This document shows positions 1 through 18,262 of a DNA stretch of 64,000 bases, piece after piece. Numbering within the stretch: position 1 is the first letter of the stretch; each line of letters starts with the position of its first letter. A model generated the notes under the pieces. That model was not told where the DNA came from. It ran no database searches and was given only the letters and a program-made list of their open reading frames with translations. The DNA comes from Nitrospira sp. (GTDB lineage Bacteria > Nitrospirota > Nitrospiria > Nitrospirales > Nitrospiraceae), in contig JAHBWO010000001.1 of NCBI GenBank assembly GCA_019636945.1, positions 1 to 64,000 of the forward strand, read 5' to 3'. The position numbers and the translations under genes are program-made.

Positions 1-3000
1 CTCCCGCTGCATACAGAAAATGCCCTTAAGCAACAGGCCTTCCCCATGATCGGGTGATGCTGCCAGAAGGATTGTGAGATGTTCCTCAGCACCAGACAGA
101 TTGTGCTGTTCGAGAAACATACGGATCAATTCAAGTCGCTTGGCCGGCTCATCGACCAAGGCCACATATCGTGCGAGAAACTGTGCCCGATAGACTGGCT
201 CTTGCAGCCGCTCAGCCACCGTCGCACCCCAGGCCAGGACAAATCGGTCGTTCGGCCACTCATCAACCAGGGCCAATTCTCGCCGGACAGATGGCCAGTC
301 TTGTTTCAGTGCCGCCGTTTGTGTCGCCGCAACATGTGCCCATGACGCACGTTCTTTGATATCTCCCATCAAGTGAATATCTCCGCCGAGCTTCCCATTG
401 CGGTAAATACGGTTCAGCTTGTAGCCGTCGACATGGAACTGCCGGTCTTCGTCTCCTGCCCACCATTGCCCCCCCCATCGGTTCAAGAAATGAGCCGCGT
501 TTGCGGCTTCGTGGACCTTTCGCCCGGGCGTTTGGCTCTCAAGGTGCACCACGACGCTCCTTGGTTGATACACAACTTGATACCCGCGTTCTCGTACTTT
601 CAAACACAGATCCGCATCTTCCAGTCCATTGAGATAGCCCTCATCAAATTTGCCGACCTCCTCGAACAGCGAGCGTCTGATGAGCAGACAGGCGGCTGTG
701 ACAATTTGAAACTCACGCCGTTGGTTGACGGCTGGATGCTCTCCGGCAAACGACTTGTAGATATGGTAGGGCAACAAATACTGACAGTCCCGTACGACAC
801 CGGCATGTTGAATGGTCCCGTCGGGATAGAGCAGCTTGCTGCCGACGATCCCGACCGCTGCATCGCCCTCTGCCTCCACCACAAGCGCATTGAGCCAGCC
901 AGGCTTGGGGACGGTGTCGTTGTTCAGAAAGACCAGATACTTCCCTTTTGCAAGAGCCGCACCCTGGTTGCAGGCTTTGGCGAACCCGACATTCTCGGCA
1001 TTCGTGATAATGCGCACGTCACCGCCCAACTGCGCGAGAAATTCCGCTGTTCCGTCCGTTGAACCGTTATCGACCACGATTAATTCATAGTCCGGCAATC
1101 CATCAAGTGCAGCCAAAGCCGTCAAGCAATCCCGGGTCAGTTCTGCCCGGTTACACACCGGCATGACGATCGAGCAGACACGGGTTTGCTCGCTCCGTAC
1201 ATGTCTCAGTTCCTCGAGACGCTGCTGCTGCGCCCTCAGTACTCCGTTGATCCGTTCCGCATGAGGTCGATACTTACGGTAGATGATCTCAGTTGTGCGC
1301 CAGTAGGTCTCCTGCGTCGCACTGGTCATGGAGGAGCCATCGGTACGCCAGCTGAACTCGGCGGTGGTGCATGGCATGTGTTTGAACGGAAATACCGTCG
1401 CCATGCGAATCCACAGGTCCCAATCCTCATGCGCGTACAGCGATTCGTCGAACCGACCAACTTGTTCAAGACAATCCCTCTGGTGCATCATGCACAGGAC
1501 GGGGAAATAGTTGGAGACCAACAAATGTGCCGCATTGAAGTCGTACGAATACGGTACGTCCCGACCTATTTCAATGTGACGATTGTCTACCACCTGTTCG
1601 TGGACCCGCCAGGCATCGGTATATGCGACCTTGTATTCCCCCTGGTCCAAAACGGACACCAGCGTTTCCAAATGGTTCGGCAAATATCGGTCGTCGTCGT
1701 CGAGATACGCAATGTAGGTACCGGATGCCGCCGTCAATCCGGTATTGCGCGAGGCGGCGAGGCCACGATTGCGATCATGCTGAATGTACATGATGCGCCC
1801 GTCATTGAGCGCCGCCACGGTCGCGCCAACATCGGTCCCTCCATCGTTGACCACCACGATTTCAAAGTCCTGACATGTCTGTCGGAGAACGCTTTGGAGG
1901 GCCTCTGTCAAACGGTCAGGCCGATTGTACGTCGGGAGAATGACCGAGACTTTCGGCCGGCGCCTGAAGGTAGCCGGTTGCTTACACCCCACTCGCTGAC
2001 AAGCCCAGACCTGGTAGATCGGCAACAGCTGCATAGATGCGAACTCGGCCGGAGTCGGTGCCGGCACATACCGCAGCCCAGGCACTTCGACATACACCCG
2101 TTCCAAACCAAGCTCGGCAAATCCTTGTCGGCGAAATAGCTTCCGTAGGTCTCCTTCCGTCACCCAGTCTTCTACCGGCTGATTCGGCGGTGCAATGGTT
2201 TTCCACTGCTCCCACATTTCACCGCGCGGTGTAGTCAGGACCACATATCCTTCCGATGTCAACAGCGCAGCGAGCTGGGCCAGAAAGAGATCTTTCTCTC
2301 CGTGAGGAACATGTTCAAGCACTTCCGAGCATACGACGACGTCGTAGGGGGCAAAGTCCGGACGGGCTAAGACCTGGTCAGCCGTGCCAGCTTCAAACCG
2401 CAGGTGGGGGAACAATCGCCGCGCATGCGCCACTACCTCGCTCACCGGTTCAACCCCTTCGCAGCTTCCGTACATAGATACGAGATTCGTGAGCCACCCG
2501 CGTCCACACCCGACATCCAGGATACGCAATACCTTATTGGGATTGTGCTGACGAACCCGTCGAAGGATGCATTCCAGGAACGACGCGATTTTGCTCCAAC
2601 GTGCGGCCTCGTCGGCATTCGGATAGGGAGTCGACCAGATCGGTGCGTTGACAAAGAGATTCACATAAAAACGATCGGAATCCATCGATCCCTCCGATGT
2701 GGTGTGAGGAGGCCGCGTTACGGCCGATGCAATCGCTGTGTGACTCGCGTCCTCGCTGGCGGTAAGGTCCCGCAGCGCTCTATGCCTGCGTAAGTTCCGC
2801 ATACCCTGCTTCACTCCATCGGGTGTCACAAACGATGCGGTGAGCTGCCCGGTTGTCAGTAGCTCGAGCCAACCTCGGAGCACATGTGACCAATCATAGG
2901 AGGCCGCCCAATGCGCTCGACCGAGCTCACCCAATTGCCGCCGCAGGTCCCCATCCTCCTTCAGGCGCATAATGACTTCGTGGAAACTGCTGAGCGTGGC

Positions 3001-5985
3001 AACCAGCCCACCTGCCTGTTCGTGAACCGTCCCGCAGCCGGGTGTGGCCAGCCATGGAAGGCCGCAGCTCATTGCTTCCAACACGACTAAGGGCGATGCT
3101 TCGCTGTGGGATGCCAGGACCAAGACATCGGCGGCCCGCATCGCGGCGGCAGTCCCTTCGGCATCAAGTCCTGGAACATAGAGCACGTCCGGCCTTCCGG
3201 CCAACGCCATCTGAACCTGACTGACATATTCTGCATCTTCAGTTGGTCTGCCGATCATCACCAACTGAGCATCTGATGGCAGCCTGTTCAACTCGTTTAG
3301 CAAACCCAGATGGTTCTTCACCGGATACAAGTTCGCCACGTGTAAGAGGAGAAATCGGTCTCGGGGTATGCCATGATCCCGTCTAAAATCTCCACGAGGA
3401 GAGATTGAGTTGCTTCCATTCGGGATATACACGGAACGCATTCTCTCCTTGCGCAAGAAACGGGCATCGACACCATCTTCCGACAGTGCCACCACAGCCT
3501 GTGCCTGTTGCGCAAGCTGAAGGAACCTGGGATATACGAATTGATTGCGAACCAAGTCGTCGAGGATTTCCTCGTTCATCGTTGGTTGGATGAAGAGCCT
3601 GGTCTTGGCGGGTAGCGAGTCCATCAACGCACCGTAGAACAGCATGTTCAGCGGAGCCCCTAGTAACAGGCAGGCAGAGTACCGGCCGGTCTGTAACAAT
3701 TTCCTGACTTGGAGAATGCAAGTCGGCGTTCCATTGTCGACCTGATCGAAACGTGCCACCGTAATGATGCGGATGCCGCGATGCTCTTCTCGATCCCGTC
3801 CATCGACCGGATAGGTTGCAACGTCCACATGAGATCCATGCGCCAAGAGGCCAAGACCTAACTGTTCAGCAACCCGCTCAACCCCACCGATGGATGGCCA
3901 AAAGAACGGCGTCACGATTAAGACCGCGTTTTGTGGACCAGCGGCGCGGGACAGAGATGCCCCGACTGTTTCGGAGCATGAGGGTTCCAGAAGCGGTGTG
4001 CATGTCGTTTTCCACACTACCTGTTCAAGTGGAATGGGTTTGTTGCCGACGAGCTTGCCTGATACAGCCGGTTCATACGGCTGTGTGAAGGGCGCCATGG
4101 TGGTGAACAACCGCTTGAATACGTCCACTTCACGCAGATTGTACTGCGTGGCGTCCTTCTCACGGTCGCCGGCGTATGGGGCATGCACGATGCCGTGAAC
4201 TCCACCCAGCAACGCGAACAGTTGCAGGAGATCGCCGGTCTCGCGAAACCGCTCAGCCTTTTTACAAATATCGGCCGTTAGAACATTCCACTGCTGAATA
4301 TCTTTCTCATACATCGTCTTATAGCGACGGTAAATTGTTTCCAACGTATAGAACGTTCCATGACGTCCCTTTACGTCTGGATGCAGAATCCACTTGATGC
4401 CGTGGCGCTCCATCTGCTCAAGCAGATCCATCTCGCTGGCCTTACGGTCCCGGAAAGACAATCCTTTCAAGAGAGCCGTCCGGTAGATCTTGACCCCTTG
4501 GATATTGATTCCCCGATCTTCGTCATAGAGATGGAAACAGATCATGCCGACATCATCTGGAGCCTTCTGCATAGCTGCTTCCATCGAGGCAACCGCATCC
4601 GGTTGTAACACCATGTCTTCATCGACCTGGATAAAGAACTCTGTCGTGCAATCCGTGATCATCTTCTGCGCCGCCGCACTGAACGGGCTTACGTTGCGGA
4701 TGATATCCAGGCGAAACTCCGTCCCGCGCTGTGCTTCGAGCGCCGCCTTGCACGCCGGAAAGACTGGATCGTCCACCGTAAGGACGAAGACTGTTGTTCT
4801 CTGATCATGCTCCGCCGACTGAGGAATCGGGAGTACTTCCAATGAGTGTTGTATGCCGTAGTCCGGACGCACGCCTGATTCGATCCAACGCAGAGTATCT
4901 GCCAGCCGTCTTTCGCTCGTATGATAACGCCGCATCTTTCGTTGAGCGTTCACCGCAATGCGGTGGGCCAAGTCGCGATCGCGCAGTACCCTCTCAAGAC
5001 CGGCATGGAGCGATTCTGGATCATCCGGCGCAAAGCACAGAACCTCCTCGCCTTCGGCAAACAACGAGTTATTGAACGGATGATCCGGCACCTGATAGGT
5101 GAGCACAGGACGACCGGCGGCCATCCCCTCGTACACACGACCGCCATAGAACTTTGCCAAACTTGGCAAATTCACAATAGCGGCCCACTGCTGAAGCTGC
5201 GCCATCCACTCTCGAAATTCACCTTCGCGCACCTCCTGCAGCATGGTGACATAGTCTGTGATCTGGTGTGCCGGCATGGCCGCAGGGGAGGACCAGCGTC
5301 TGATTGCCGAAGCTTGCAGCTGGTCGAACCAGGTCTGATAACGAGTCGATGGCGCGCCGGACCCCACAAACGTCATGTGTGCCTGCAACCGTGCGTTTTC
5401 TACCCAGGCCCGTCGAGGGCCGTATGGATGGCCATGGAACACACCAGTTGAAAAGCGCGGCTCGGACGTACTCGGAACGATGAATCGTTCAGGCACCATC
5501 GTCGGCCACCATAACGACTGAACGCCAGCGCGCTGCGCCAAGGGTTCGACGTCCCGTTCGTCCGGTACCAGCACATGTGTGAAAACGCTGGCCTGCTCCG
5601 CTACTGTCTGCATTCTGCCACGAAGATGTCCCGCCCAGTCATAATCGGCTTCATCATACGTCAGCGACTCCATCACGATCCCAACACGGACCGGCGCCAG
5701 ACCGGAGATCCACTCAAGTATAGATACAGTCAAGGGCGCATGGACGAGCCAAACCCACACTTGGTCGAATCGTTGGCCGTCGACCGCAGCCCGACTTTGT
5801 TCGAGCCATCGATCCGGCGACAACGACGCATTTGCGAACAATGGTAACGCGGTGCAGGTCGCACCGGCGGCACGCAAACCTTCACCGACACCGAAACAGG
5901 CAGGATAAGTCCAAGCTCTCGCCTGAGCCCAGGTCGGAAACTCCAACTGCAGCAACAACACCTTTGGTGCGGTACGACGATTCAT
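1..5985 (-). CDS. Giant multidomain glycosyltransferase/methyltransferase (3' end outside window)
   Basis: An uninterrupted frame of 1995 codons starts at the ATG at 5985 and is still open at position 1. By visible motifs the order is: residues 1-385, a CgeB-like glycosyltransferase (GGRVYEGMAAGRPVL); about 395-640, a GT-A-like domain (QVDEDMVLQPDA); about 683-1060, a GT4 domain (IGGVERVAEQLG, then SPLVVLEAMSCGLP); about 1101-1330, a SAM methyltransferase (ILDVGCGRGW); about 1340-1590, GT2 (SVILPTYNRP, YLDDDDRYLP); about 1600-1860, GT2 (VVDNGSTDGT, FLNNDTVPKPGW); then TPR-like helices from about 1890. It probably assembles and methylates several residues of one surface or flagellar glycan in the cytoplasm. 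It is the last visible gene of the glycan operon, 21 bp after the upstream gene. Domain calls are by eye; acceptor and sugars are unknown. Confidence 0.85.
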   Translation of the reverse strand, partial: MNRRTAPKVLLLQLEFPTWAQARAWTYPACFGVGEGLRAAGATCTALPLFANASLSPDRWLEQSRAAVDGQRFDQVWVWLVHAPLTVSILEWISGLAPVRVGIVMESLTYDEADYDWAGHLRGRMQTVAEQASVFTHVLVPDERDVEPLAQRAGVQSLWWPTMVPERFIVPSTSEPRFSTGVFHGHPYGPRRAWVENARLQAHMTFVGSGAPSTRYQTWFDQLQASAIRRWSSPAAMPAHQITDYVTMLQEVREGEFREWMAQLQQWAAIVNLPSLAKFYGGRVYEGMAAGRPVLTYQVPDHPFNNSLFAEGEEVLCFAPDDPESLHAGLERVLRDRDLAHRIAVNAQRKMRRYHTSERRLADTLRWIESGVRPDYGIQHSLEVLPIPQSAEHDQRTTVFVLTVDDPVFPACKAALEAQRGTEFRLDIIRNVSPFSAAAQKMITDCTTEFFIQVDEDMVLQPDAVASMEAAMQKAPDDVGMICFHLYDEDRGINIQGVKIYRTALLKGLSFRDRKASEMDLLEQMERHGIKWILHPDVKGRHGTFYTLETIYRRYKTMYEKDIQQWNVLTADICKKAERFRETGDLLQLFALLGGVHGIVHAPYAGDREKDATQYNLREVDVFKRLFTTMAPFTQPYEPAVSGKLVGNKPIPLEQVVWKTTCTPLLEPSCSETVGASLSRAAGPQNAVLIVTPFFWPSIGGVERVAEQLGLGLLAHGSHVDVATYPVDGRDREEHRGIRIITVARFDQVDNGTPTCILQVRKLLQTGRYSACLLLGAPLNMLFYGALMDSLPAKTRLFIQPTMNEEILDDLVRNQFVYPRFLQLAQQAQAVVALSEDGVDARFLRKERMRSVYIPNGSNSISPRGDFRRDHGIPRDRFLLLHVANLYPVKNHLGLLNELNRLPSDAQLVMIGRPTEDAEYVSQVQMALAGRPDVLYVPGLDAEGTAAAMRAADVLVLASHSEASPLVVLEAMSCGLPWLATPGCGTVHEQAGGLVATLSSFHEVIMRLKEDGDLRRQLGELGRAHWAASYDWSHVLRGWLELLTTGQLTASFVTPDGVKQGMRNLRRHRALRDLTASEDASHTAIASAVTRPPHTTSEGSMDSDRFYVNLFVNAPIWSTPYPNADEAARWSKIASFLECILRRVRQHNPNKVLRILDVGCGRGWLTNLVSMYGSCEGVEPVSEVVAHARRLFPHLRFEAGTADQVLARPDFAPYDVVVCSEVLEHVPHGEKDLFLAQLAALLTSEGYVVLTTPRGEMWEQWKTIAPPNQPVEDWVTEGDLRKLFRRQGFAELGLERVYVEVPGLRYVPAPTPAEFASMQLLPIYQVWACQRVGCKQPATFRRRPKVSVILPTYNRPDRLTEALQSVLRQTCQDFEIVVVNDGGTDVGATVAALNDGRIMYIQHDRNRGLAASRNTGLTAASGTYIAYLDDDDRYLPNHLETLVSVLDQGEYKVAYTDAWRVHEQVVDNRHIEIGRDVPYSYDFNAAHLLVSNYFPVLCMMHQRDCLEQVGRFDESLYAHEDWDLWIRMATVFPFKHMPCTTAEFSWRTDGSSMTSATQETYWRTTEIIYRKYRPHAERINGVLRAQQQRLEELRHVRSEQTRVCSIVMPVCNRAELTRDCLTALAALDGLPDYELIVVDNGSTDGTAEFLAQLGGDVRIITNAENVGFAKACNQGAALAKGKYLVFLNNDTVPKPGWLNALVVEAEGDAAVGIVGSKLLYPDGTIQHAGVVRDCQYLLPYHIYKSFAGEHPAVNQRREFQIVTAACLLIRRSLFEEVGKFDEGYLNGLEDADLCLKVRERGYQVVYQPRSVVVHLESQTPGRKVHEAANAAHFLNRWGGQWWAGDEDRQFHVDGYKLNRIYRNGKLGGDIHLMGDIKERASWAHVAATQTAALKQDWPSVRRELALVDEWPNDRFVLAWGATVAERLQEPVYRAQFLARYVALVDEPAKRLELIRMFLEQHNLSGAEEHLTILLAASPDHGEGLLLKGIFCMQRE

Positions 5986-6006
5986 CCGCGTTAGTCCTGC
6001 CTGCGC

Positions 6007-7623
6007 TCAGCCGTTCGGCCTGGCTGGCGATCCATAGTGGCCGGCTGGAGCGACAAGGTCCCTCTCCGGAGATTCGATCTGTAAGAGGTCCGGTGAACTG
6101 GTCATCGGTGCCTGATCAGCCATCATCGCCACCGGCATATCCTGAACACTCCCGAAACCACCATCACCGAGACTGACCAATTGCTCACTCTGCCGTTGAC
6201 CGGACGGCGCGAACAGCTTCTTCGACAGAAGCCGTGCGACTCGTATCAACATAAGCGATCCCCCGATCGCACCATGCTTTTGGAGCATAGGAATCCAGCG
6301 CCAGGGGGCGCTGTAGATGCTGACGAAACCTTCGTTTTGCAGATCGATTAAATCTTGAGGTGTCAGATCGCCGACGGCCGTGACGGCGGACCCATAGCGT
6401 CGATACTCTGAAAAGTCCTTCGTCATCAACTTCACACCTTTATCCCCTTTTACCGCCAATTCGTGAAACTCTGTTCCTGGATACGGCACGGCAATGGCAA
6501 AGTTTGCCTGTTTGACTTCCCGCGCATTGCGTAGAAACCGCAGCGTCGCTCGAACCGTATCCCTCGTCTCGCCAGGCAGCCCGATCATCACGCTGTTCAA
6601 GGCTTCAACACCGTACTTATTACAGATACCATTGGCCCTGACGTAGTGCTCTAATGGCACCTGCTTCTTCATGGTTCGCCGGATCTCAGGATCTACCGTT
6701 TCCAACCCAAAGGACAATCGAATTAAGCCGCTCTGCACCAGACGCGCCATAACCTCGTCCTCAACGAGATTCGCCCGGGTGCTGCCTTCAAACGTGATCT
6801 TCAATCCTTCCTGGTCGATGAGGTCACAGATTTCCAGAATATGGTCCTTCCACAATGTCATCACGTCATCGACAATATAGAAATGTCTGGTCCCAAACCG
6901 CTCAACCACCTGCTTTATTTCATCGACCACCGAACGCGGTGACCGCACTCTCATTTGGGTTGTCTTCAAGGCCTCGGATGCACAGAAAATGCATTTCCAG
7001 GGGCAGCCTCGCATCGTCTGAATCGACGTGAACGGCAGTCGACCACGAAGTGTGCCTAGCTTGTACAACGGCATGTTCAGGCGATGTCTGGCGGGAGCCG
7101 GCAGTACATCCAGATTGGTAATATCCGCTGGCTGTCCCGTCGAAACTACCCGACCTTGATCTCGATAAATGATCCCGGCTACGGATGAGAGATCTTGCTT
7201 CTTCTCATACCGGCTGAGAAACTCCGGCCATGACTGTTCGGCTTCTCCAATAAACGCATAGTCAAATGCGGCAAGCAGCGCCTGTTCCTTCATGATGGTG
7301 ATGTGAGGACCACCCACGGCAATTGGAATGTGCGGGGCGATGCGTTTGATCCCTTCCGCAACTGCCTTACTGATATGGAAAAATGGACTTGTCGCAGTCA
7401 ATCCGATCATGTCTGGTTTGAGCGCCACCGCCCGTTGAGCCATGTCCTCTAGTGTGATCTGCTCGGCTTCACCGTCCATGATGGTCACCTCGTGACCATG
7501 CCGTTCGGAGATCGCAGCCAGCAGAGCCAGATTCAGCGGAGGCCAGGTCGAGTTCCGTCTCGCAAAATGACCAAACAGGCCGTAGGATCCTGTCCAGCTT
7601 GGATAGAGGAAAAGCACCTTCAT
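6007..7623 (-). CDS. B12-binding-domain radical SAM protein
   Basis: A 538-residue protein. Residues 1-140 resemble a cobalamin-binding Rossmann domain (VLFLYPSW, ISERHGHEVTIMDGEAEQ, AVGGPHIT). The radical SAM core follows, with the 4Fe-4S motif CxxxCxxC as Cys207, Cys211 and Cys214 in RGCPWKCIFCAS. Later blocks (SFGLETVD, VMIGLPGET) fit the family. Such enzymes methylate or rearrange unactivated carbons; the substrate here is unknown. A GGAGGT site lies 5 bases before the ATG. It sits between the ThDP enzyme and the giant glycosyltransferase in a tight operon, so a role in modifying the sugar or a linked lipid is reasonable but inferred. The C-terminal 80 residues are not recognised. Confidence 0.85.
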   Translation of the reverse strand: MKVLFLYPSWTGSYGLFGHFARRNSTWPPLNLALLAAISERHGHEVTIMDGEAEQITLEDMAQRAVALKPDMIGLTATSPFFHISKAVAEGIKRIAPHIPIAVGGPHITIMKEQALLAAFDYAFIGEAEQSWPEFLSRYEKKQDLSSVAGIIYRDQGRVVSTGQPADITNLDVLPAPARHRLNMPLYKLGTLRGRLPFTSIQTMRGCPWKCIFCASEALKTTQMRVRSPRSVVDEIKQVVERFGTRHFYIVDDVMTLWKDHILEICDLIDQEGLKITFEGSTRANLVEDEVMARLVQSGLIRLSFGLETVDPEIRRTMKKQVPLEHYVRANGICNKYGVEALNSVMIGLPGETRDTVRATLRFLRNAREVKQANFAIAVPYPGTEFHELAVKGDKGVKLMTKDFSEYRRYGSAVTAVGDLTPQDLIDLQNEGFVSIYSAPWRWIPMLQKHGAIGGSLMLIRVARLLSKKLFAPSGQRQSEQLVSLGDGGFGSVQDMPVAMMADQAPMTSSPDLLQIESPERDLVAPAGHYGSPARPNG

Positions 7624-7669
7624 CTCATACCTCCGATCCGTCCCGCTCGAATGATCACAAACTCCATCC

Positions 7670-9499
7670 TCACGGCTGCATCGACTTCACAACATCTGGA
7701 TACTCTGGACACATCCATCCTTCCACCGGCTCGACCACCATGTTGTCCCTGAACTCCTCGCGCGAGAGGTAGGGGTACATGTCTTCGATCGGCGTCTTCC
7801 ATCCGAAGATTCTCGGTTCGTAGGTATGGTACTCATCCATATCTATGTCACAGACCACCGGTCCGTCGTACTGCAGCACTTCATCGATCTTGGCGTCCAT
7901 CTCAGCATGGTTACCGATCGCCACTGTTTTGATGCCATACGCCTCTGCCAATTTAAGAAAGTCCGGCGGACGATACCCCTTCGGACCGCAAGCCTCAGCA
8001 CGCCCCTGGAAGTTGGTCTCCTGATACGCTTTGGTGATCCCGTAAATATGGTTGTTCAAAATGAACGTTTTGACCTTCACACCATAGTTGAGGAACGTCT
8101 GCAACTCTTGCAGGTTCATATTGAAACCGCCGTCACCGATCGTGCAGACCACCTGGCGGGTTGGATCCGCGAACCAGGCCCCCATGGCTCCGGCAAAGGA
8201 AAAACCCATCGGCGAATTACCATTGTTCGTCAGGTTGCGCTGTCCGTACTTGGTCTCGAATGCATGGTTGCTGACGACGATGTTGCCGCCGCAATCACCG
8301 ACCAGGACGTCGGTCGCACCCATCTTCTCGGACAGGCGGCGCATGAAGGCATAGGGGTGGACCTTTTCTTTCTGCTTGAAGAAGTCGGAGCGCACGGGAT
8401 CGTACTTCCGCTTCCATTCCATCACCCGTTCGGTCCAGCTCGCACGGTGAGGAATCGCTTTCGGATTCTTGTCCAGCGCGACCAGCAGCCGCCGCACGAA
8501 CGCCTTGGCGTCGCAGAGGATGTTGACGTCGAACGGCACTTGCTGGAACTTCCGCTGCACCATAGCCGGATCGATTTCGACCAAGTATTTTCTGGCCTGC
8601 CTGGCAAAACTCTGCACATTGCCTCCCGTGATGCGTCCGGAAATCCGGCTGCCGATCGAGATCAGGAGATCGCTGTTCTGAATGCCGAAGTTCCGCCCAG
8701 CACCTCCGTAAGTCCCGATACGCCCGCCATAGAACTCATAGTCGGACGTAATAACGTCCAACGCGTTCCAGGTCGGGAAGCAAGGAATCTTCAACCGACG
8801 TCCCAGCTCACGAACGTCGTCCTGCGCGTCAGCCAGCCGGACGCCCCCGCCTACGAGGATAACCGGCCGTTCCGCCCATCGGAGATCATCCAGCAACTTG
8901 TGGATCTGCCGGTCCACCACATCCAGGTCGTAGCCGGCGACGGCTGGCGGCTCGAACCCAACCAATTGCTTCACATCAATCTTGGCTTTTTGAATATCGA
9001 GCGGAATATCGAGTAAGACTGGCCCGGGGCGCCCGCTTTGGCAGAGCCACAACGCCTTTTCCACTTCGTAGCGGACGTCCTCCGCCTTCACGAGCATCTT
9101 GGCGTACTTCGTCACCGGCGCTGCCATTGCAACGATGTCCGTTTCTTGAAATCCGACCTGCCGAATCGAAGGATCAGGCCGCAGAAACCTCGAGTTGATC
9201 TGACCGGTCAAAAACACACAAGGAATCGAGTCATAGAAACAATTCCCCATCGATGTGAGAAGATTCATGCCACCTGGTCCGCTCGTCGCGATCGCCACAC
9301 CGGGAATGCCTTTGACCTTGGCATACCCTTCCGCGGCGAATCCGCCGGCCTGTTCGTGCATGACCGTCACATACTCCGTGGCTGCCGTCCTGGTGAACGC
9401 ATCGATCAAGTCGCCGTTGGCCGCGCCATAGACGACGAATATCTTGTCGATGCCTCGTTCTGCGAGCGTATTGATAATGTAGTCCGCCACTTTGATCAT
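7670..9499 (-). CDS. ThDP-dependent acetolactate-synthase-like enzyme
   Basis: A 609-residue ThDP enzyme with the three-domain acetohydroxyacid synthase plan. The ThDP-activating glutamate is Glu49 in MHEQAGGFAAEGYA. The cofactor motif GDGG is at 455-458, with the partner asparagines at 482-483 (LNNHIYG). A central Rossmann-like domain contains RPVILVGGGVRLA. The location is unusual for a branched-chain amino-acid enzyme: no regulatory small subunit and no ilvC are beside it, and it is flanked by two radical SAM genes inside a sugar-nucleotide operon. Homologues such as YerE add a two-carbon acetyl unit from pyruvate to a keto-sugar, which would suit the ColD-like dehydratase in the same operon. 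That use is inferred; a simple AHAS role or a phosphonopyruvate-decarboxylase-like role is possible. Confidence 0.85.
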   Translation of the reverse strand: MIKVADYIINTLAERGIDKIFVVYGAANGDLIDAFTRTAATEYVTVMHEQAGGFAAEGYAKVKGIPGVAIATSGPGGMNLLTSMGNCFYDSIPCVFLTGQINSRFLRPDPSIRQVGFQETDIVAMAAPVTKYAKMLVKAEDVRYEVEKALWLCQSGRPGPVLLDIPLDIQKAKIDVKQLVGFEPPAVAGYDLDVVDRQIHKLLDDLRWAERPVILVGGGVRLADAQDDVRELGRRLKIPCFPTWNALDVITSDYEFYGGRIGTYGGAGRNFGIQNSDLLISIGSRISGRITGGNVQSFARQARKYLVEIDPAMVQRKFQQVPFDVNILCDAKAFVRRLLVALDKNPKAIPHRASWTERVMEWKRKYDPVRSDFFKQKEKVHPYAFMRRLSEKMGATDVLVGDCGGNIVVSNHAFETKYGQRNLTNNGNSPMGFSFAGAMGAWFADPTRQVVCTIGDGGFNMNLQELQTFLNYGVKVKTFILNNHIYGITKAYQETNFQGRAEACGPKGYRPPDFLKLAEAYGIKTVAIGNHAEMDAKIDEVLQYDGPVVCDIDMDEYHTYEPRIFGWKTPIEDMYPYLSREEFRDNMVVEPVEGWMCPEYPDVVKSMQP

Positions 9500-9520
9500 A
9501 GGACTCCTTCGCGGCTTTGG

Positions 9521-11029
9521 TCAGACCGCCGGTATGGCCGTGGCGTCGTGATGACGCCGTTGGACGTGATGAGAACACATCTCCATGACATGATCAGCCA
9601 CATGCGGGCCAAAAGTCCGGTGCAGCAACCCGAGATACGACGGGTGCTGGAAATACTCCAGAAATGCTCGATCACGAAAATCCAATACGTCGGTGGCCGA
9701 CAACTGTTCAGTCGGTAGGGGCAGCGCCTCATAGGCATGCTGTGAATACCCGATCCACCCTGGTCCTCCTGAATCATCAGGCAGCGGCCACCCCTTGTCT
9801 CTTGCCAGGGCATATAAGGGTGATCCCGGATAGGCCATTGCACAGTAGAAATTGGCCCACTCCGTGTTCAGTTCGAGCGCCAAATCCAGTGTCGTCCGCA
9901 TGCTGGCCAGCGTGTCGTCAGGCAACCCAAAAATGTAATTGGCCGCGACATAAATACCATGCGACCGAATGCGCTCTACCGTTGCGACGATCTCCCGGTC
10001 TCCGAACCGCCCTTTCTCTACGCCGTCGCGGACATGTTGGCTGCCGGACTCGATACCCAGCCCCAGCCAGTTGAACCCAGCCGCCTTCAGTTTTTCGAGG
10101 ACCTGGTCTTGTACGGTATCCACACGAGCATAGGCCCAAATATTAAGGTGGTAGCCTCGCTCAATGATCCGGTCGCAAATACCCAGCACATGCCGCCGGT
10201 TCAACACAAACATCTCGTCCGGAATCTTGATGTTGGTGACGCCATAGTCTAGGACCAGCCGATCAATCAGACGAATGACATGATCGGGACTCCAGGTACG
10301 AAGCATCGGCGTGTCAAACGGCGCATTGATGCAACAAAACGAACATTTAAATGGGCATCCCAGGCTCGTTTGTAACGAAGCGTAGGGGCTGCGCGCCTCG
10401 AGACGGTCGAAGCAGTGCCAATTGTGGGCACGATAGCGACTCATCTCGAGCAACTCCCAGCCTTGCCCCGACAACTCCCGGTCCAGATCGGCAATCAGCG
10501 GCGCAGGTGGATTCGAGTGGATCTGACTCTGCTCCTGATACCACAAGCCCGGCACGTCCTTGAGCGATCCCACACCATCCCGCAGTAGTCGCAGAAGGCC
10601 CAGCACAGTGTACGGTCCTTCTCCCTGACACACGTAGGTATAGGGCTCTTCCAGCAGTGTTCGTCTGGGCAACGCCGACGGATGCGTCCCCATCACCAGC
10701 GTCGGAACATCTGACAAAGCCCGCAGCTCTTCGCAAACGCGCCGCCCAGCCGGCATGCATTGCGTTGAAGCAGAGGGTTGCTGTCCATAAATGACGAACA
10801 CCACCAAGCGGGGATCGGCCTGTGCAATGGCATGGGCGGTTTGCACATGGGTAAATCCTTTCGCCTCCGCATCTAGAATCCCGACGTCATACCCACGATC
10901 CCGAATGAAGGATGCCATCATTCCTGCCCATACAGGGGGCTCAATCGCAGCCAAATCGCGACTGAGACTCTGATAAACCTGCACACGGCTTGGTGGCGTC
11001 ACAAACAGGACATCACTACGCTGCGACAT
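9521..11029 (-). CDS. B12-binding-domain radical SAM protein (second)
   Basis: A 502-residue protein from the ATG at 11029, chosen because MSQRSDVLFVTPPS begins the cobalamin-binding fold and earlier ATGs lie within the upstream gene. The cobalamin-binding-like domain spans about 1-150 (MASFIRDRGYDVGILDAEA, VMGTHPSALP). The cluster motif CxxxCxxC is Cys225, Cys229 and Cys232 in LGCPFKCSFCC. Later motifs include LGLGIESGS and YIFGLPDDT. It overlaps the aminotransferase by 14 bp, which suggests translational coupling. It is only distantly similar to the other radical SAM protein here, so the two probably catalyse different steps. Substrate unknown. Confidence 0.85.
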   Translation of the reverse strand: MSQRSDVLFVTPPSRVQVYQSLSRDLAAIEPPVWAGMMASFIRDRGYDVGILDAEAKGFTHVQTAHAIAQADPRLVVFVIYGQQPSASTQCMPAGRRVCEELRALSDVPTLVMGTHPSALPRRTLLEEPYTYVCQGEGPYTVLGLLRLLRDGVGSLKDVPGLWYQEQSQIHSNPPAPLIADLDRELSGQGWELLEMSRYRAHNWHCFDRLEARSPYASLQTSLGCPFKCSFCCINAPFDTPMLRTWSPDHVIRLIDRLVLDYGVTNIKIPDEMFVLNRRHVLGICDRIIERGYHLNIWAYARVDTVQDQVLEKLKAAGFNWLGLGIESGSQHVRDGVEKGRFGDREIVATVERIRSHGIYVAANYIFGLPDDTLASMRTTLDLALELNTEWANFYCAMAYPGSPLYALARDKGWPLPDDSGGPGWIGYSQHAYEALPLPTEQLSATDVLDFRDRAFLEYFQHPSYLGLLHRTFGPHVADHVMEMCSHHVQRRHHDATAIPAV

Positions 11030-12218
11030 GCATGCCTCCAACATCATGGGCCAATGCCACGACACGTCGAACACCTTCCATGACATCCTGCTCTTGTCCG
11101 CAGGTGGCGATCCGGATAAAGGTGGAGCAGTCGGCGCCAAAACTTCGTCCCGGTGTCACCGCGGTATGTCGTTCTTCCAGCAGCTGTTTACAGAACGTCA
11201 TATCGTCCAGGCCCGTCCCACCGATATCGACAAACAAGTAGAAGCCTGATTCCGGCGAGGCCGTGCGCAAAATTCCCGAGCCGTTGACCGAAGCGGCACA
11301 CGTGCTTGCCACGCGGTTACAATGTGCCTTGACCTGCGCAACGTATTGATCGAGTATCGGAAGACCCGCAAGACATCCCAATTGCGTGAACGCCGGCAGA
11401 CAGGAGATTAGCGTGGATGATGAGAGTGCCAGCTTCTCTGCAACTGAAGGATGTGCGATCGCATAGCCGATACGGTATCCAGGAATCGAACACAGTTTCG
11501 AAAAAGATGACATCACGACCAACTGAGGCATGTCACATGAAGCTAAACTGAAGAATGGCCAGCTGAAAGACAACTCGCCGTAGGTTTCGTCGCTCAACAG
11601 CCAAATACTCTCCTGGTCACACCGTTGCGCCAGCAGTTCCAGCATTGCCCTGGTATAGACGGCACCTGTTGGATTGTTGGCGGAATTGACAATGATGGCT
11701 TTAGGAGATGCAGAGATGGCTGCTTCAATATGTGCCTCAGACAGATGAAACCCGTTGTCTTGCGCCAACGAAACTGATCTCACGTCAAGACCTATGTGCG
11801 CCGTCGCCGCCCAATACGATGGAAATGCCGGAGTGAAGAGCACAACTCTGTCGCCGGGATTGCACGTGAGGTCCAGAAACTGGCTGATCAGCAGGTTCGC
11901 CGGGCTGATCACGACATGACTGTCGTCGAGGATTCGTCCTGTTCTCAAAGCGTACCGAGCAGCCAGAGCGGTCCGTAATTCTCGAAGGCCTCCCATCGGG
12001 GTATACCCAAGTTGCCTCCCCCGGACGGCCTCCACGGTCGCCTCGATAATTTCAGTGGGAGGTGCCATACGCGGGTTGCCCAGCTCAAGGTGATAGACAT
12101 ATTGCCCGTCCAGCTCCAGGCTCTGGGCTCGATCCAACACCTTGAACATCTCCTGGCCGATGAGCCGATCTCCTCGAGAAGAAAACGGCAATGTCGTCAA
12201 TGCATGAGAATAGGTCAT
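11016..12218 (-). CDS. PLP-dependent class I/II aminotransferase
   Basis: A 400-residue fold-type I aminotransferase. The start at 12218 is chosen because an AGAGGA ribosome site lies about 6 bases upstream and the next residues match the family N-terminus. Visible motifs are NNPTG at 181-185, the cofactor aspartate region SDETYG near 209, and the Schiff-base lysine Lys241 in SSFSKLCSIPGYRIG. It would transfer an amino group between an amino acid and a 2-oxo acid or keto-sugar derivative. Aspartate-aminotransferase-like proteins usually act on amino acids, so it may supply or consume a side-chain precursor in this glycan pathway. Substrate is unknown. Confidence 0.85.
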   Translation of the reverse strand: MTYSHALTTLPFSSRGDRLIGQEMFKVLDRAQSLELDGQYVYHLELGNPRMAPPTEIIEATVEAVRGRQLGYTPMGGLRELRTALAARYALRTGRILDDSHVVISPANLLISQFLDLTCNPGDRVVLFTPAFPSYWAATAHIGLDVRSVSLAQDNGFHLSEAHIEAAISASPKAIIVNSANNPTGAVYTRAMLELLAQRCDQESIWLLSDETYGELSFSWPFFSLASCDMPQLVVMSSFSKLCSIPGYRIGYAIAHPSVAEKLALSSSTLISCLPAFTQLGCLAGLPILDQYVAQVKAHCNRVASTCAASVNGSGILRTASPESGFYLFVDIGGTGLDDMTFCKQLLEERHTAVTPGRSFGADCSTFIRIATCGQEQDVMEGVRRVVALAHDVGGMHVAA

Positions 12219-12270
12219 CGCAATCCTCTGCGGCTCACAAACTCTTCCATCCGCCAGTTTCTGACGGCGA

Positions 12271-13002
12271 TCATGACAGGACTCCTCCCCGCCACTCATG
12301 CCGAGAGCTTGCGAACTCTGCCAGCCGCTCCGGGGTGCCGATATCGTATAGCGCAACGGCGCTGACAAATCCGTACACGCCGCGAGGCAGCAACGCCGGG
12401 AGCACGTCCCTTTCAATGGATGAGAGGCGATGATCCGGAATCTCCTTCAGCACATCCCTCCTGAACACATACAGACCGGCATTGTGATATTGCGGCACCG
12501 TACCGGGTTGTTTCTCGGTGAACGCCGTGACTTGTGCGTGTGAATTGACCGTCACAAAACCAACGTCACTCCGTGCTCCTGCTGAGGCTAGTGCGATGGT
12601 TGCCCGTCCTTGCTTGGCAGCATGAAATTCGAGCAGCTGGTTCGGATCAATTTCGATCAACGAATCACCGTTGACAACCATGAAAGGATCGCTCTGGATC
12701 AGGGCGGCCGCATGCTTGACAGCGCCCGCCGTTCCCATCGGGAAAGGCTCATGCGAAATCACTACTTCATAGGGATGCCGTATACCGGCGTATCGCTGGG
12801 CGATATGCCCACCTAGGTATCCAGTACACAGAATAATACGTGTCATTCCGTGAACGACAAAGTGCTCAAGAATGAAATCGAGAAAAGGTCGGTCATGAAT
12901 TAGGGCCATTGCTTTCGGCCGGTCGCTCACCGCCGGACGCAGCCTTGTGCCAAGCCCACCACACAGAACGACGAGATCACAACCGCCGGCACCTATGGTC
13001 AT
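12271..13002 (-). CDS. hddC: Sugar-1-phosphate nucleotidyltransferase (HddC-like)
   Basis: A 243-residue nucleotidyltransferase with the signature LCGGLGTRLRP followed by RPKAM, and the metal-binding block VVNGDSLIE. The length and the adjacent heptose-type kinase point to GDP-D-glycero-alpha-D-manno-heptose synthesis (HddC), but the family also contains glucose- and mannose-1-phosphate enzymes, so the sugar is inferred from context. Its ATG overlaps the stop codon of the kinase gene by four bases (ATGA), consistent with coupled translation. Confidence 0.8.
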   Translation of the reverse strand: MTIGAGGCDLVVLCGGLGTRLRPAVSDRPKAMALIHDRPFLDFILEHFVVHGMTRIILCTGYLGGHIAQRYAGIRHPYEVVISHEPFPMGTAGAVKHAAALIQSDPFMVVNGDSLIEIDPNQLLEFHAAKQGRATIALASAGARSDVGFVTVNSHAQVTAFTEKQPGTVPQYHNAGLYVFRRDVLKEIPDHRLSSIERDVLPALLPRGVYGFVSAVALYDIGTPERLAEFASSRHEWRGGVLS

Positions 13003-14069
13003 GCCGCTTTCTCCAACGGGAATGCGTTCCGACCAGCGGCGGACGCCTGCTCATCCGTCCATCCAAAGTCCCGCACTATCGGTGTTTCCTGTTGATAGAA
13101 TACGATCTGGCTGCCAAGCCCTTCGAATCGGAAGGGAACCCGAAGAAGCCCAGGCAAGGCAGCATGGATTCTTTGATGCACCTCCGGTTTGGCGAAGAAC
13201 AGCATAAATCCACCACCCCCTGCACCAAGCAGTTTGCCGCCAAGCGCTCCCGCTCTCCTTGCTGCATCGTAGATGTCGTCGATCATCGGCGTGGTGATCT
13301 GGGACGTCAGACCTCGCTTGACCATCCAAGCCTCATGCAGCAACTCACCGAACTCACCGAGATCGCGATCTCCAACCATGATCGAGATACCCTCTTGAAC
13401 CATCTGTAACATGGCGAAGAGTTCGACACGCCGCTGCTTTGTTTTTTCAATTTGCTCCTTCGCGATTTCGGATGCCGTGCGTGAAAATCCTGTAAAATAG
13501 AGCAATAGATGATCCTGAAAATCGGTCAGTCTCTCCGGTTTCATCACGAGCGATGTGTATCCGATGTCACCGTTCGATGAAAAATTAACGCGGCACAACC
13601 CGCCGTGCGCCGCCAACACCTGATCCTGGCAGCCGACGGACTCCTGCAAGACGTTCTGTTCGATGTGAATCGCTGTCTGAGCCAATTCTGCTTTGCTCGG
13701 CATGGTGTGTTGCAAGGCGTACAAGGAATGCAATAGGCCGACGGTGAACGAAGAACTCGATCCCAATCCGGTGCGCGCAGGCAAATCACCATCGTGGTGA
13801 ATTTCAAGACCATCGGTTATGCCCATATGCTGGAGTACACCACGGACCGCAGGATGTTTGATCTCATTATTCGATTTGGCTTGCTCGATACGTGAGTAGG
13901 CAATGCGTGTCCTGTGTTCAAAGAACGGCGGCAGATACCGGCAGGAGATGTAACAATACTTGTCGATGGTCGTTGCCAACACAGCGCCCCCATGTTCCCG
14001 AAACCACACCGGATAGTCGGTGCCACCACCGAAAAATGAGATGCGGAAGGGTGTGCGGCTGATGATCAT
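12999..14069 (-). CDS. hddA: GHMP kinase, D-glycero-D-manno-heptose 7-phosphate kinase-like (HddA)
   Basis: A 356-residue GHMP kinase. Motif 1 is SRTPFRISFFGGGTDYP at the N-terminus. The ATP-binding motif 2 is PARTGLGSSSSFTVG, and motif 3 is KLLGAGGGGFMLFF near the C-terminus. The FFGGGTDYP start is characteristic of the HddA subgroup, which phosphorylates heptose 7-phosphate at C1 before nucleotidyl transfer. It lies directly upstream of, and overlaps, the HddC-like gene, so a GDP-heptose product is likely. No gmhA or gmhB homologue is visible in the window; these would have to be elsewhere. Confidence 0.85.
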   Translation of the reverse strand: MIISRTPFRISFFGGGTDYPVWFREHGGAVLATTIDKYCYISCRYLPPFFEHRTRIAYSRIEQAKSNNEIKHPAVRGVLQHMGITDGLEIHHDGDLPARTGLGSSSSFTVGLLHSLYALQHTMPSKAELAQTAIHIEQNVLQESVGCQDQVLAAHGGLCRVNFSSNGDIGYTSLVMKPERLTDFQDHLLLYFTGFSRTASEIAKEQIEKTKQRRVELFAMLQMVQEGISIMVGDRDLGEFGELLHEAWMVKRGLTSQITTPMIDDIYDAARRAGALGGKLLGAGGGGFMLFFAKPEVHQRIHAALPGLLRVPFRFEGLGSQIVFYQQETPIVRDFGWTDEQASAAGRNAFPLEKAA

Positions 14070-14102
14070 CGTACGACTCCCCTCTGTGCGATCGTGCTGG
14101 CC

Positions 14103-15050
14103 TTACACATTGCCGTATCCGGTTCCGCCGATGACGGTGTAGCACTTAGTCAGCTCCCGGATGCCACGTGCGAGCGACCAATCGGGTGTGAAGCCTGTGG
14201 CGAGTATCCGTTTGTTGGAGACGATGTAATCCCGCTTGTCCGGATCTTCCCCGATCGGGGCCTCCGAATAGACGAACTGCGGCACCTGCCGTTTGATTTC
14301 AGCGCACAGTTCCAACTTTGACAAGTTGGCATCGTCCAGCCCAACATTGTATGGGGAGTCCTTCATGGAGTCGAAATGCTCGATCGCATGGAGGAAAGCC
14401 TTGGTCACGTCTCGAACATGAATATAGTTGCGCTTACAGTGGCCTTCGAAGACTGTGACGGCTCGATCATGGACCGCCCGCCAGACAAAATCGTTCACGA
14501 GGAGGTCCATTCGCATCCGGGGCGAAGCACCGAAGACCGTCGCAAGCCGAAGCGTGATGGCATTGCCCCGATCGAGTACGACCCGTTCGGCTTTTACTTT
14601 GGTCTCACCGTAGAGACTAATGGGACGGAGCGGCGACTCTTCGGTGCAGGGAATTCCAGGTTGACCGATCCCATATCCACTGTTGGTGACAGGAAAGATG
14701 ATGCGCTGAGTCGGCGAAGAGAGCTTACACAGCATGTGAACCGCATCCAAATTAATCGAATAGGCACCGATTCGGTCCCGATTGCACAGCGGTGCACCCA
14801 CTAACGCCGCCAACGGAATGAGGATATCGCCGTCACGAATCACATCCGTCATGAGTCGTTCATCCCGACAATCACCGCGGATCACGCTAAACCTGTCGTC
14901 ACTGCAACAATCCAGGAGGCTATTCTGTCGGTACATGAAATTGTCGATGACCGTGACCCTATACCCGCGATTGAGTAAGTGGCGAGACAGCACGGATCCG
15001 ATGTAGCCTGCTCCGCCCGTGATCACGACATGTTCTTGCAATGTCATCAT
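14103..15050 (-). CDS. NAD-dependent sugar epimerase/dehydratase (SDR)
   Basis: A 315-residue extended SDR protein. The dinucleotide motif is VITGGAGYIGS and the catalytic YxxxK appears as YGETK. The pattern resembles UDP-glucose 4-epimerase and nucleotide-sugar 4,6-dehydratase relatives. Two adjacent ATGs (15050 and 15047) are possible starts. It follows the second SDR gene by 15 bp. The substrate is most likely a nucleotide-activated heptose or hexose made by this operon, but the sequence does not tell epimerisation from dehydration. Confidence 0.82.
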   Translation of the reverse strand: MMTLQEHVVITGGAGYIGSVLSRHLLNRGYRVTVIDNFMYRQNSLLDCCSDDRFSVIRGDCRDERLMTDVIRDGDILIPLAALVGAPLCNRDRIGAYSINLDAVHMLCKLSSPTQRIIFPVTNSGYGIGQPGIPCTEESPLRPISLYGETKVKAERVVLDRGNAITLRLATVFGASPRMRMDLLVNDFVWRAVHDRAVTVFEGHCKRNYIHVRDVTKAFLHAIEHFDSMKDSPYNVGLDDANLSKLELCAEIKRQVPQFVYSEAPIGEDPDKRDYIVSNKRILATGFTPDWSLARGIRELTKCYTVIGGTGYGNV

Positions 15051-15065
15051 GTTCCTGTTGACTCC

Positions 15066-16019
15066 TTACGAATGACCGCACAACGAGGACTCAAGATGAC
15101 GCTGGGATCGTCCGACCTGTCGGCTGAAAAACCATCGCACGGTCTCTGTGAGCCCATCAGTGAGACTGGTGAATCGGTTGCCTGGAAATCGTGCTTCGAA
15201 GGTAGTACTCCGCAAGCGCTTTACGAGCATCCCTTCCGGCTTGGTGGCGTCGAAGACAATAGGACCGTGATAGTCCATGACCTGGCCGATCGTACGGGCG
15301 AGGTGAGCGATCGAAATTCCTTCGTCCGGAGTCACAATGGTCGTACCTGATCCCCAGGCACCCGCTAGGGCTCCAAGAGCTAAACGCGCCACATCATCGA
15401 CGTACACAAATTGACGAACGGCCCGTCCAGTACCCCAGACCGTAAAGACAGCGCCGTTCGTCTGGGCGTCATGACAACGGCGGATCAGCGCGCCCACCAC
15501 ATGCCCCGATTCCAGGTCGAAAGAGTCATGCGGCCCGTACATGGTCACGGGTGTGAGGCTGTTCCACGCAAGTCCCGCCTCCGTGGCCGCGAGTCTGACC
15601 TGAAGGTCGAGCATGCGCTTCGCATAGGCGTAGCCGGCGTTTCCGTCATAGGGCGATGCACTCAGCAAGTCGGTTTCCGTGGTTTGGCGATCCGCATAAA
15701 AGGGAAACGCGCAACTGGATAACATCGTTGTGAGACGCGGGATGCGCAGCTGCCGTGCGGCCGACAAGACAGCCGTGTTGATCAGTATGTTCTCTTCGAG
15801 AAACCGCGCATTGTCGACGGCATTGGCTTTGACCCCTCCGACCACGCCGGCCAAATGCAAGATCTGGCCGGGCTGAATAGATTGCAACAGCCGCTCGGCG
15901 ACGCTTCGATCGCGAAGATCTCCGTCCCGCCTGGACAGGTAGACCGCATCAGGTCTCAGACGGCGCACGGCCTGCCCTAACAACCCCGATCCGCCGGTGA
16001 CAAGTAAGGGAGCTGTCAC
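15066..16019 (-). CDS. GDP-fucose-synthase-like SDR
   Basis: A 317-residue SDR with N-terminal LVTGGSGLLGQAV and active-site YAYAKRM. The segment LSSCAFPFYAD matches the SSC..P block of GDP-L-fucose synthases, which are bifunctional 3,5-epimerase/4-reductases acting on GDP-4-keto-6-deoxymannose. In heptose pathways such enzymes epimerise and reduce GDP-4-keto-6-deoxyheptose. It overlaps the upstream PLP enzyme gene by four bases. GDP-L-fucose or colitose synthase-like activity (ColC partners ColD) are both possible; the neighbouring ColD-like gene makes the latter attractive. Confidence 0.82.
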   Translation of the reverse strand: MTAPLLVTGGSGLLGQAVRRLRPDAVYLSRRDGDLRDRSVAERLLQSIQPGQILHLAGVVGGVKANAVDNARFLEENILINTAVLSAARQLRIPRLTTMLSSCAFPFYADRQTTETDLLSASPYDGNAGYAYAKRMLDLQVRLAATEAGLAWNSLTPVTMYGPHDSFDLESGHVVGALIRRCHDAQTNGAVFTVWGTGRAVRQFVYVDDVARLALGALAGAWGSGTTIVTPDEGISIAHLARTIGQVMDYHGPIVFDATKPEGMLVKRLRSTTFEARFPGNRFTSLTDGLTETVRWFFSRQVGRSQRHLESSLCGHS

Positions 16020-17212
16020 GCTGCCTCCAGAACGATAGTGGAAATCGTCGCAATGTCCTCTTCGCTCAGGCTTGGGTGATTCGGTAGAAAGAACCCACAG
16101 TGATGAATCCGATCGGCGACCGGGAAACTGGCTGCCCCATAGCGGTTCATCCAGAACGGATGCAGACCAAGATTGCCGGCTGAGAAAATGCGTGTCTCCA
16201 CACCACGGGCAGAGAGGGCTTGGACGATGCGCTGCCGTTGTTGACGAGACTCCGCCAAGAGTCCGACAGAAATGCTGGCTACTTCACTATCTGCCGGATG
16301 ACGTTGAACGTAGAAACTTCCACTCAAGCGAGCCAAATAGCGAGCATGGTTCTGCCGGCGCTGCTCCGTCATCCAATCCAGCTTTTCCAGTTGCCCGATC
16401 CCGATGAACGCGTTCAAGTCTGTCGACCGGAGGTTGAAGCCGGGCTCATAAAACACAAAGGGTGAATGAAAGTCATCGATACCGTATCGCGTTACAAGCG
16501 AGTGATGTGTCGCTCTGTCCAAGTCCTTGCTCCAGCCGTGGCTTCTGAGCATGAGCAGTAGATCTCTCATCTTGGGATCATCGGTAGAGACCATGCCGCC
16601 CTCGATCGTCGACATTTGATGGCCGAAGTAAAATGAGAAACTGCCCATATCACCAAATGAGCCGACTCTCCGCCCCTCGTAGGTCGCTCCGATTGCCGCA
16701 CACGCGTCTTCGAGAAGCACGAACTCATAGCGAGCCTTCAATGCCATCAGTTCCCGCATTTTGTGAGGGACACCAAGCACTTGGACGAGCATGACGGTCT
16801 GAGCGTGATGCTGTTTTAGCAGCGTTTCGAGATGATCTAAGTCGAGACCGAACGTCTCCGAATCGGCCTCACACATAATGGGCTCAAAACCGAATTGGAT
16901 CGCCGGCGCAATCGATGTGACCCAGCCCACGCTGGGAACGATCACTTTCTTGTTACGCAACCGCCCTGAGGCCAGGAGCGCGTAGTACATCAAGAGATTG
17001 GCGGACGACCCAGAGTTGCAGAATATGGAGTGCGAGGAATTCAACCAGTTTGACCAACGCGACTCAAAGTCGCACGTAACAGTCCCCTTCGTTAATCGTG
17101 GATAGGTACGAAGCCACTCGATCAGGCGATCAGTGTCGTGACGGTCGATTGTGTCGTACGCCAAACACCATCGAGGATTGAGCTCGTGTTGCGTCGTAGG
17201 TGGACCGTTCAT
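16016..17212 (-). CDS. DegT/StrS-family PLP protein with Lys replaced by His (ColD-like dehydratase)
   Basis: A 398-residue member of the DegT/DnrJ/EryC1/StrS family, first visible gene of the glycan operon. The substrate and PLP pocket blocks are present (CNSGSSANLL near 65, LLEDACAAIG near 166). The position that normally holds the PLP-binding lysine is His198 in SFYFGHQMSTIEGG. In this family a His there marks PMP-dependent sugar 3-dehydratases such as ColD and E1/RfbH, which remove the C3 hydroxyl instead of transaminating. I therefore expect a 3-deoxy sugar-nucleotide intermediate. No E1-type ferredoxin reductase partner is seen beside it, which favours the ColD mode. Activity is inferred from one residue. 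Confidence 0.85.
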   Translation of the reverse strand: MNGPPTTQHELNPRWCLAYDTIDRHDTDRLIEWLRTYPRLTKGTVTCDFESRWSNWLNSSHSIFCNSGSSANLLMYYALLASGRLRNKKVIVPSVGWVTSIAPAIQFGFEPIMCEADSETFGLDLDHLETLLKQHHAQTVMLVQVLGVPHKMRELMALKARYEFVLLEDACAAIGATYEGRRVGSFGDMGSFSFYFGHQMSTIEGGMVSTDDPKMRDLLLMLRSHGWSKDLDRATHHSLVTRYGIDDFHSPFVFYEPGFNLRSTDLNAFIGIGQLEKLDWMTEQRRQNHARYLARLSGSFYVQRHPADSEVASISVGLLAESRQQRQRIVQALSARGVETRIFSAGNLGLHPFWMNRYGAASFPVADRIHHCGFFLPNHPSLSEEDIATISTIVLEAA

Positions 17213-17391
17213 GATGCTCTCTTCCTTGAGATCAGATCTGCGCAGAAACGTACTTCAAGACACATGCCAGACAGATGGCTGGACTATGGCGTCTAGACGA
17301 GGGTTTTTTGATTTAGAAGACGAATAGGTCGGCAGTATTTGCCGGTCTGAAGGGAAAACAATTCCTTAGGAAGGCTGAAGGGTTTCTACTG
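17213..17391. other. Spacer between the PilZ gene and the glycan operon
   Basis: 179 bp with no convincing gene. A small inverted repeat (CGGCA-N5-TGCCG) lies near 17331-17345 downstream of the PilZ stop. A weak -24/-12-like match sits at 17255-17269 but lacks the -12 GC. The promoter of the glycan operon should lie here, but I cannot place it. Confidence 0.4.
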
Positions 17392-18114: not shown

Positions 18115-18163
18115 CCTGTTCCTTCCTCGTTGAGCAATCGTTACAAACACTCGCTGATGGGCT

Positions 18164-18191: not shown

Positions 18192-18262
18192 GCAACAAGG
18201 ATACGAGATGGAACATATTGATTCAGAATGAATTCCAACGCGCACCGTCTTGCACACACCGA

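Follow-up and report, generated by a model that had tools for sequence, protein, structure and literature searches.

Which glycan would a bacterium build with a single polypeptide that stacks several glycosyltransferase (GT) domains, a methyltransferase and a TPR-like tail, and onto which acceptor would it be built? This question is raised by a giant gene at the start of the window, the 64,000-nucleotide stretch of DNA analyzed here, which opens contig C1 of a Nitrospira MAG comprising 267 contigs. We propose, with a probability of roughly 0.78, that its product is a soluble cytosolic enzyme for flagellin-glycan assembly, and that its N-terminal module (N-module) uses the sugar of an adjoining biosynthetic cassette and is exchanged alongside that cassette. 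The features concerned are collected in Table 1.

Table 1 Features of the giant gene and its surroundings in window coordinates, with residues numbered along the giant protein
Feature	Position	Strand	Evidence and remarks
Module 1, CgeB-type GT-B, residues 1-390	4816..5985	-	PF13524; E286 invariant in 21 long forms; exchangeable N-terminal module
Module 2, GT-A fold, residues 400-660	4006..4788	-	No Pfam family; DED motif 455-457; AF2 core
Module 3, GT4 (GT-B), residues 690-1075	2761..3918	-	Pfam; EX7E (E962, E970)
Module 4, class I SAM methyltransferase, residues 1096-1335	1981..2700	-	PF13489; DVGCGRG
Module 5, GT2, residues 1340-1592	1210..1968	-	PF00535; D1381, D1429/D1431, E1520-D1521 invariant
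Module 6, GT2, constant C-terminal anchor part, residues 1596-1850	436..1200	-	PF00535; D1639, D1690, E1789-D1790 invariant in long forms
Module 7, first part of TPR superhelix, residues 1851-1995	1..435	-	Remaining 145 residues on C115:1-435 (L128)
Nine-gene sugar cassette	6007..17212	-	Pfam and NCBIfam; upstream of the giant gene, same strand
Horizontally exchanged block: cassette and 5' part of the giant gene	5075..17290 (ends approximate)	-	Nucleotide identity to L097
Vertically inherited flank	17392..25300	- (PilZ/YcgR, FliW, FlgL); + (HD-GYP, hybrid histidine kinase)	Pfam; 96.4% nucleotide identity to L074

One chain of seven modules

The giant gene is a single open frame on the minus strand, beginning with an ATG at 5985 and continuing through 1995 stop-free codons until it leaves the window at position 1, which is also the contig edge. 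This bears out the original prediction of one frame of at least 1995 codons, and the proposed extension past position 1 proved feasible, as a profile search of the same genome located the missing 3' part at C115:1-435, which encodes the final 145 aa and a stop codon. Compared with the homologue L028, the C1/C115 junction shows neither gap nor overlap, and contig C115, 6005 b long, matches the region downstream of the giant gene in L028 at 93% identity. The full-length protein is 2140 aa (1995 + 145), and independent genomes encode homologues of 2151-2195 aa; among these genomes are the closed CP092081/G276, G022 and G080.

An assembly artefact or a decayed fusion might be suspected from the exit of the frame at the end of a contig, in a MAG of 267 contigs, and from two relatives, L017 and L048, that are split or truncated. 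Such an origin has virtually no likelihood, since full-length homologues are present in many genomes, closed Nitrospira chromosomes among them, the missing C-terminus was recovered from C115, and 17 of the 18 catalytic and cofactor positions checked are invariant across 21 long homologues. The remaining position, the acid of methyltransferase motif I, is D or E, with the motif-I glycines invariant. All six enzyme domains retain their catalytic residues, and neither of the failings that the original prediction had considered, separate ORFs joined by misassembly or catalytic residues absent from most domains, was found. Of the two broken relatives, L048 (G010:C19) and L017 (G020:C226), one is truncated inside the TPR tail with the remainder in another frame, and one consists of three ORFs, which may reflect sequencing error or real decay.

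Along the chain, the modules are ordered CgeB-type GT-B, GT-A, GT4, SAM methyltransferase, GT2, GT2 and TPR superhelix. Pfam matches comprised PF13524 (CgeB-type GT-B), PF00534, PF13692 and PF13439 (GT4), PF13489 (methyltransferase) and two copies of PF00535 (GT2), in agreement with the domain list first proposed. Residues 391-690, described in that list as GT-A-like, gave no Pfam match even at E 0.1, and this assignment was instead supported by fold: an AlphaFold2 (AF2) model from 12 homologues contains a GT-A core with an invariant DED motif. The core aligns with the GT2-type structure 6p61 at a VIA-align Z of 11.1 and matches many other GT-A enzymes; the GT-A claim is confined to this core, the confidence of the whole model being modest (pLDDT 57). 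Across the 246 genomes of the phylum searched, the GT-A module was detected solely in Nitrospiraceae. The prediction of multiple GTs in one chain stood, its count of at least four being replaced by five (Pfam, plus fold for GT-A).

At the C-terminal end, an AF2 model of the GT2-TPR region of L028 (19 homologues, pLDDT mostly >90) consists of a GT-A domain and, after it, an extended TPR-like superhelix; the best matches were GT2 enzymes, including chondroitin polymerase, for the former, and an 8-repeat consensus TPR and the OGT TPR 1w3b for the latter, as expected from the TPR-like tail predicted earlier. In this model, the chain ends ~264 residues after the point where the helical repeats begin. 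No membrane helix was predicted in the giant protein, in which no 19-residue window is sufficiently hydrophobic. Among the NCBIfam equivalog matches listed for it, all were under cut-off; the Maf domain PF01973 was absent from it by Pfam, with none in genome G000; and an Rfam search of the window returned no match.

Flagellar setting across the genus

The giant gene sits between flgL/fliW and fliC. On the upstream side, FlgK also lies beside FlgL, and the flagellin-like gene at 23531-25300 was rejected as the target flagellin, being FlgL (589 aa) adjoining FlgK. The DUF3391/HD-GYP gene and the hybrid histidine kinase gene (18357-22567) separate FliW from PilZ in most relatives compared and are encoded on the opposite strand. 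FliC was not found in this MAG; its gene is probably located past the end of contig C115. In L028, the giant gene is followed by genes for a GT9, a CgeB-type GT, a second GT9, a 176-aa protein, FliC (275 aa), FlaG, FliD and FliS, the GTs and FliC being assigned by Pfam and the last three named by reading of the gene listing. In 56 of 62 genomes, the giant gene and FliC share a contig, with FliC 6.0-7.3 kb downstream; FlgL and FliW lie on the other side, and the proximity to a flagellar locus given in the original prediction is supported. This adjacency to fliC, and the pairing of GT genes with sugar-biosynthesis genes that vary between relatives, characterize flagellin glycosylation islands.

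Of 79 genomes of the genus, 66 carry the C-terminal anchor (GT2-TPR) of the giant and 69 carry flagellin-family genes, and the giant is absent from nine of the ten flagellin-less genomes, a co-occurrence with a Fisher p=3e-8 when kinship is ignored. Genome G073 carries the giant with flagellin undetected (83% complete, fragmented), the draft genomes G066 and G067 carry flagellin without the giant, and the sole flagellin-family gene of the giant-less G051 is FlgL-like. The giant is also absent from G094, a flagellated genome of 99% completeness and the sole one with a Maf-family gene over cut-off. The syntenic position in G094, with the order kinase, HD-GYP, PilZ and cassette, contains genes for NeuB, a 2-epimerase, DegT and further sugar functions, as well as for a TPR-bearing Maf of 881 aa and for FliC, so that a known flagellin-glycosylation system stands in for the giant. 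Throughout this locus, L136 (G094:C20:92000-111999), the entire glycosylation segment is swapped for nonulosonate genes, the TPR-bearing Maf and a flagellin that is different and longer.

These distributions bear on whether the giant might assemble, on a lipid carrier, the repeat of an O-antigen, capsule or exopolysaccharide, its flagellar location being incidental. Multi-module GTs with methyltransferases are known from such pathways (WsaE, PMC2943079; Klebsiella O4/O7, PMC11231755). However, the presence of the giant tracks flagellin at a conserved site, a Maf occupies that site in G094, the chain carries a TPR tail, and no Wzx, Wzy, ligase or ABC transporter was found among the island genes examined, all of which makes a lipid-linked product quite improbable and favors flagellin glycosylation.

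A mosaic gene and its sugar cassette

The cassette encodes a DegT protein, an Fcl-like protein, an epimerase, an HddA-like kinase, an HddC-like nucleotidyltransferase, an aminotransferase, a B12-radical SAM protein, a TPP enzyme and another B12-radical SAM protein; among the NCBIfam matches listed for it, all were under cut-off. The combination of HddA/HddC-like, Fcl-like, DegT and acetolactate-synthase-like TPP enzymes with two B12-radical-SAM genes suggests a branched or C-methylated amino sugar as the product. The occurrence of an acetolactate-synthase-like TPP enzyme (7670-9499) in a sugar operon is an observation in itself; it falls under every NCBIfam cut-off among the matches listed and is possibly the carboligase for a branched sugar.

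The giant gene is an intragenic mosaic, with recombination ending inside the gene. The exchanged block of ~12 kb comprises the nine sugar genes and the first ~220-390 codons of the giant gene, and is ~98% identical to that of another species. Relative to L097 (G043), nucleotide identity is mostly 97-100% from window position ~17290 to ~5325, declines gradually across positions 5325-4825, from 95.6% to 79%, and is <50% deeper in the giant gene; outside the block, the flanks and the rest of the giant gene are 47-85% identical, with 78-90% given for the PilZ side. The nine cassette genes are 96-100% identical to those of L097 at the amino acid level. Over the tree columns, Module 1 is 93% identical to L097, compared with 43-44% to the close vertical relatives L074/L075. 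L074 (G006) shares the upstream flank at 96.4% nucleotide identity, ending at window position ~17450, and the giant gene from codon ~687 onward at 85.6%; its cassette differs, with one radical-SAM gene. The first-domain tree rejects grouping of the window with L074/L075 (dlnL 405, AU p=2e-6), and the MT+GT2a backbone tree rejects grouping of the window with L097 (dlnL 214, AU p=7e-5), these p-values being descriptive because the groupings were picked after the identities had been seen. A foreign origin judged by composition was rejected, as G+C is uniform (55.6-58.0%), which points to exchange with genomes of similar composition.

Across 42 loci, with the N-module taken as the first 380 residues, the N-module correlated with the cassette both given the anchor (partial Mantel r=0.72, p=0.0002) and given PilZ (r=0.73). 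For the anchor, the correlation with the cassette was 0.06 given the N-module (p=0.08) and weak given PilZ alone (r=0.20, p=0.0002), and that with PilZ given the cassette was 0.37. Within the 19 CgeB-type loci alone, the link with the cassette was 0.42 for the N-module (p=0.0002) versus -0.09 for the anchor (p=0.85).

Domain counts drop towards the N-terminus, from GT2b (60/60, a constancy that is partly ascertainment because the loci were collected via the C-terminal anchor) through GT2a (44), MT (38) and CgeB (31) to GT-A and GT4 (21 each). Short forms lack modules 2 and 3, whose presence changes 4-5 times on the trees, both where the full cassette is present and where it is not. The domain order of the giant, for which the original prediction suggested a search, is seen in relatives but is not genus-wide: the GT-A and GT4 pair undergoes gain or loss and the N-module is swapped with the upstream sugar operon, which indicates an assembly enzyme that is modular and recombines, not one of fixed composition. 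Three loci (L053, L057 and L060) encode 1040-aa short forms that begin with the methyltransferase ~270 b after PilZ, without cassette or CgeB module. Two others (L087:14547-19850 in oriented coordinates, and L135:4935-10352) have an extra N-terminal stretch of 330-350 residues ahead of the CgeB domain, and this stretch occurs where the cassette is without the last B12-radical-SAM gene.

Because the N-module adjoins the cassette, linkage could mimic their association, the first domain being swapped through adjacency and not through use of the sugar; this explanation competes with the cassette part of our proposal and leaves flagellin glycosylation untouched. Linkage decay along the gene would yield the same gradient, the ends of the exchanged block vary between comparisons, and modules 2 and 3 likewise come and go, with the full cassette or without it. 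Nevertheless, hitchhiking seems rather unlikely to us: the class of the N-terminal module matches the class of the cassette across very different cassettes (13 N-terminal clusters at the threshold used), the association persists within the CgeB class alone, and the N tree requires 7 changes of cassette type, versus 11 for the backbone tree. We infer chiefly that the N-module is the transferase for the sugar of the cassette.

Proposed assembly and known systems

In the proposed mechanism, the C-terminal TPR superhelix would dock the acceptor, for which FliC, with its gene 6-7 kb downstream, is the likeliest candidate; docking is suggested because the TPR of FlmG binds flagellins and the GT-TPR protein GmaR modifies flagellin. 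The GT2 next to the TPR would act at or near the protein-proximal end of the glycan, and the other GT2, the methyltransferase, and the GT4, GT-A and CgeB-type GT-B modules would add and methylate outer sugars ahead of FliC export, possibly with channelling along the chain. The proximal role of the C-terminal GT2 and the outer-sugar role of the N-module are assigned because the former is constant and the latter varies. The N-module would take its unusual nucleotide sugar from the upstream cassette, and the two GT9 proteins and the CgeB-type GT encoded between the giant gene and fliC may add further sugars. Recombination with an endpoint within the gene exchanges cassette and N-module between Nitrospira species, the descent of the C-terminal anchor being mostly vertical. 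A wider generalization is held tentatively, at somewhat less than even odds: N-terminal GT modules may be cartridges that move with a donor-sugar pathway and are docked on a constant GT2-TPR, the module order from C to N mirroring the sugar order from proximal to distal on flagellin.

Co-exchange of the first domain and the neighboring sugar genes would let bacteria restyle the flagellar coat as a unit. If this is true, evolutionary exchange would by itself suffice to assign donor specificity to an individual domain of a giant enzyme, and cassette-module pairs would be ready-made parts for testing step order in multi-domain glycosyltransferases. Nitrite-oxidising Nitrospira would gain a defined, variable flagellar surface, which phages or grazers might recognise.

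Other large GT proteins include Pseudomonas FgtA/Fgt1, Burkholderia FtgA and Myxococcus RfbC. The kinds of system to which the giant can be compared are known, namely flagellin glycosylation islands with horizontal exchange, MT-GT-GT chains, modular polymerases and TPR-GT flagellin enzymes. In mostly non-subscription literature, where absence is weak evidence, no report was found of a flagellin enzyme that unites five GT domains with a methyltransferase, of a GT domain and its sugar cassette being exchanged together via an intragenic breakpoint, or of anything relevant on Nitrospira flagellin glycosylation or mosaic or multidomain flagellin GTs.

The flagellin glycosylation islands of Enterobacteriaceae are variable, horizontally acquired sets of sugar and GT genes beside fliC, including some GT-methyltransferase fusions; they differ in having one to three GTs each, and the description consulted mentions neither a multi-GT chain nor co-exchange of a GT domain with a cassette (PMC4875605). 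Modular polymerases with multi-module GTs and methyltransferases are represented by Klebsiella O4/O7 (PMC11231755). WsaE of the Geobacillus stearothermophilus S-layer glycan combines a methyltransferase and two rhamnosyltransferases in one chain (PMC2943079). By architecture alone, it resembles modules 4-6 of the giant (MT-GT2-GT2), with the methyltransferase first and two GTs following in one soluble polypeptide. However, WsaE as described has three domains compared with seven, and its substrate is a lipid-linked S-layer glycan that is exported by an ABC system. The island genes examined around the giant include no transporter. Caulobacter FlmG (596 aa), a flagellin pseudaminyl transferase, joins a flagellin-binding TPR region to an OGT-type GT-B (PMC7591256); it shares with the giant a TPR fused to a GT, a cytosolic location and, presumably, a flagellin acceptor, but its TPR is N-terminal with one OGT/GT-B GT, whereas the giant has a GT2 followed by a C-terminal TPR, plus five more modules. 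Listeria GmaR (637 aa), a GT-TPR-antirepressor protein responsible for flagellin O-GlcNAc (PMC9638930), has a single GT and an antirepressor domain, and in it, as in the giant, whose acceptor is likewise presumed to be flagellin, the GT is directly followed by the TPR.
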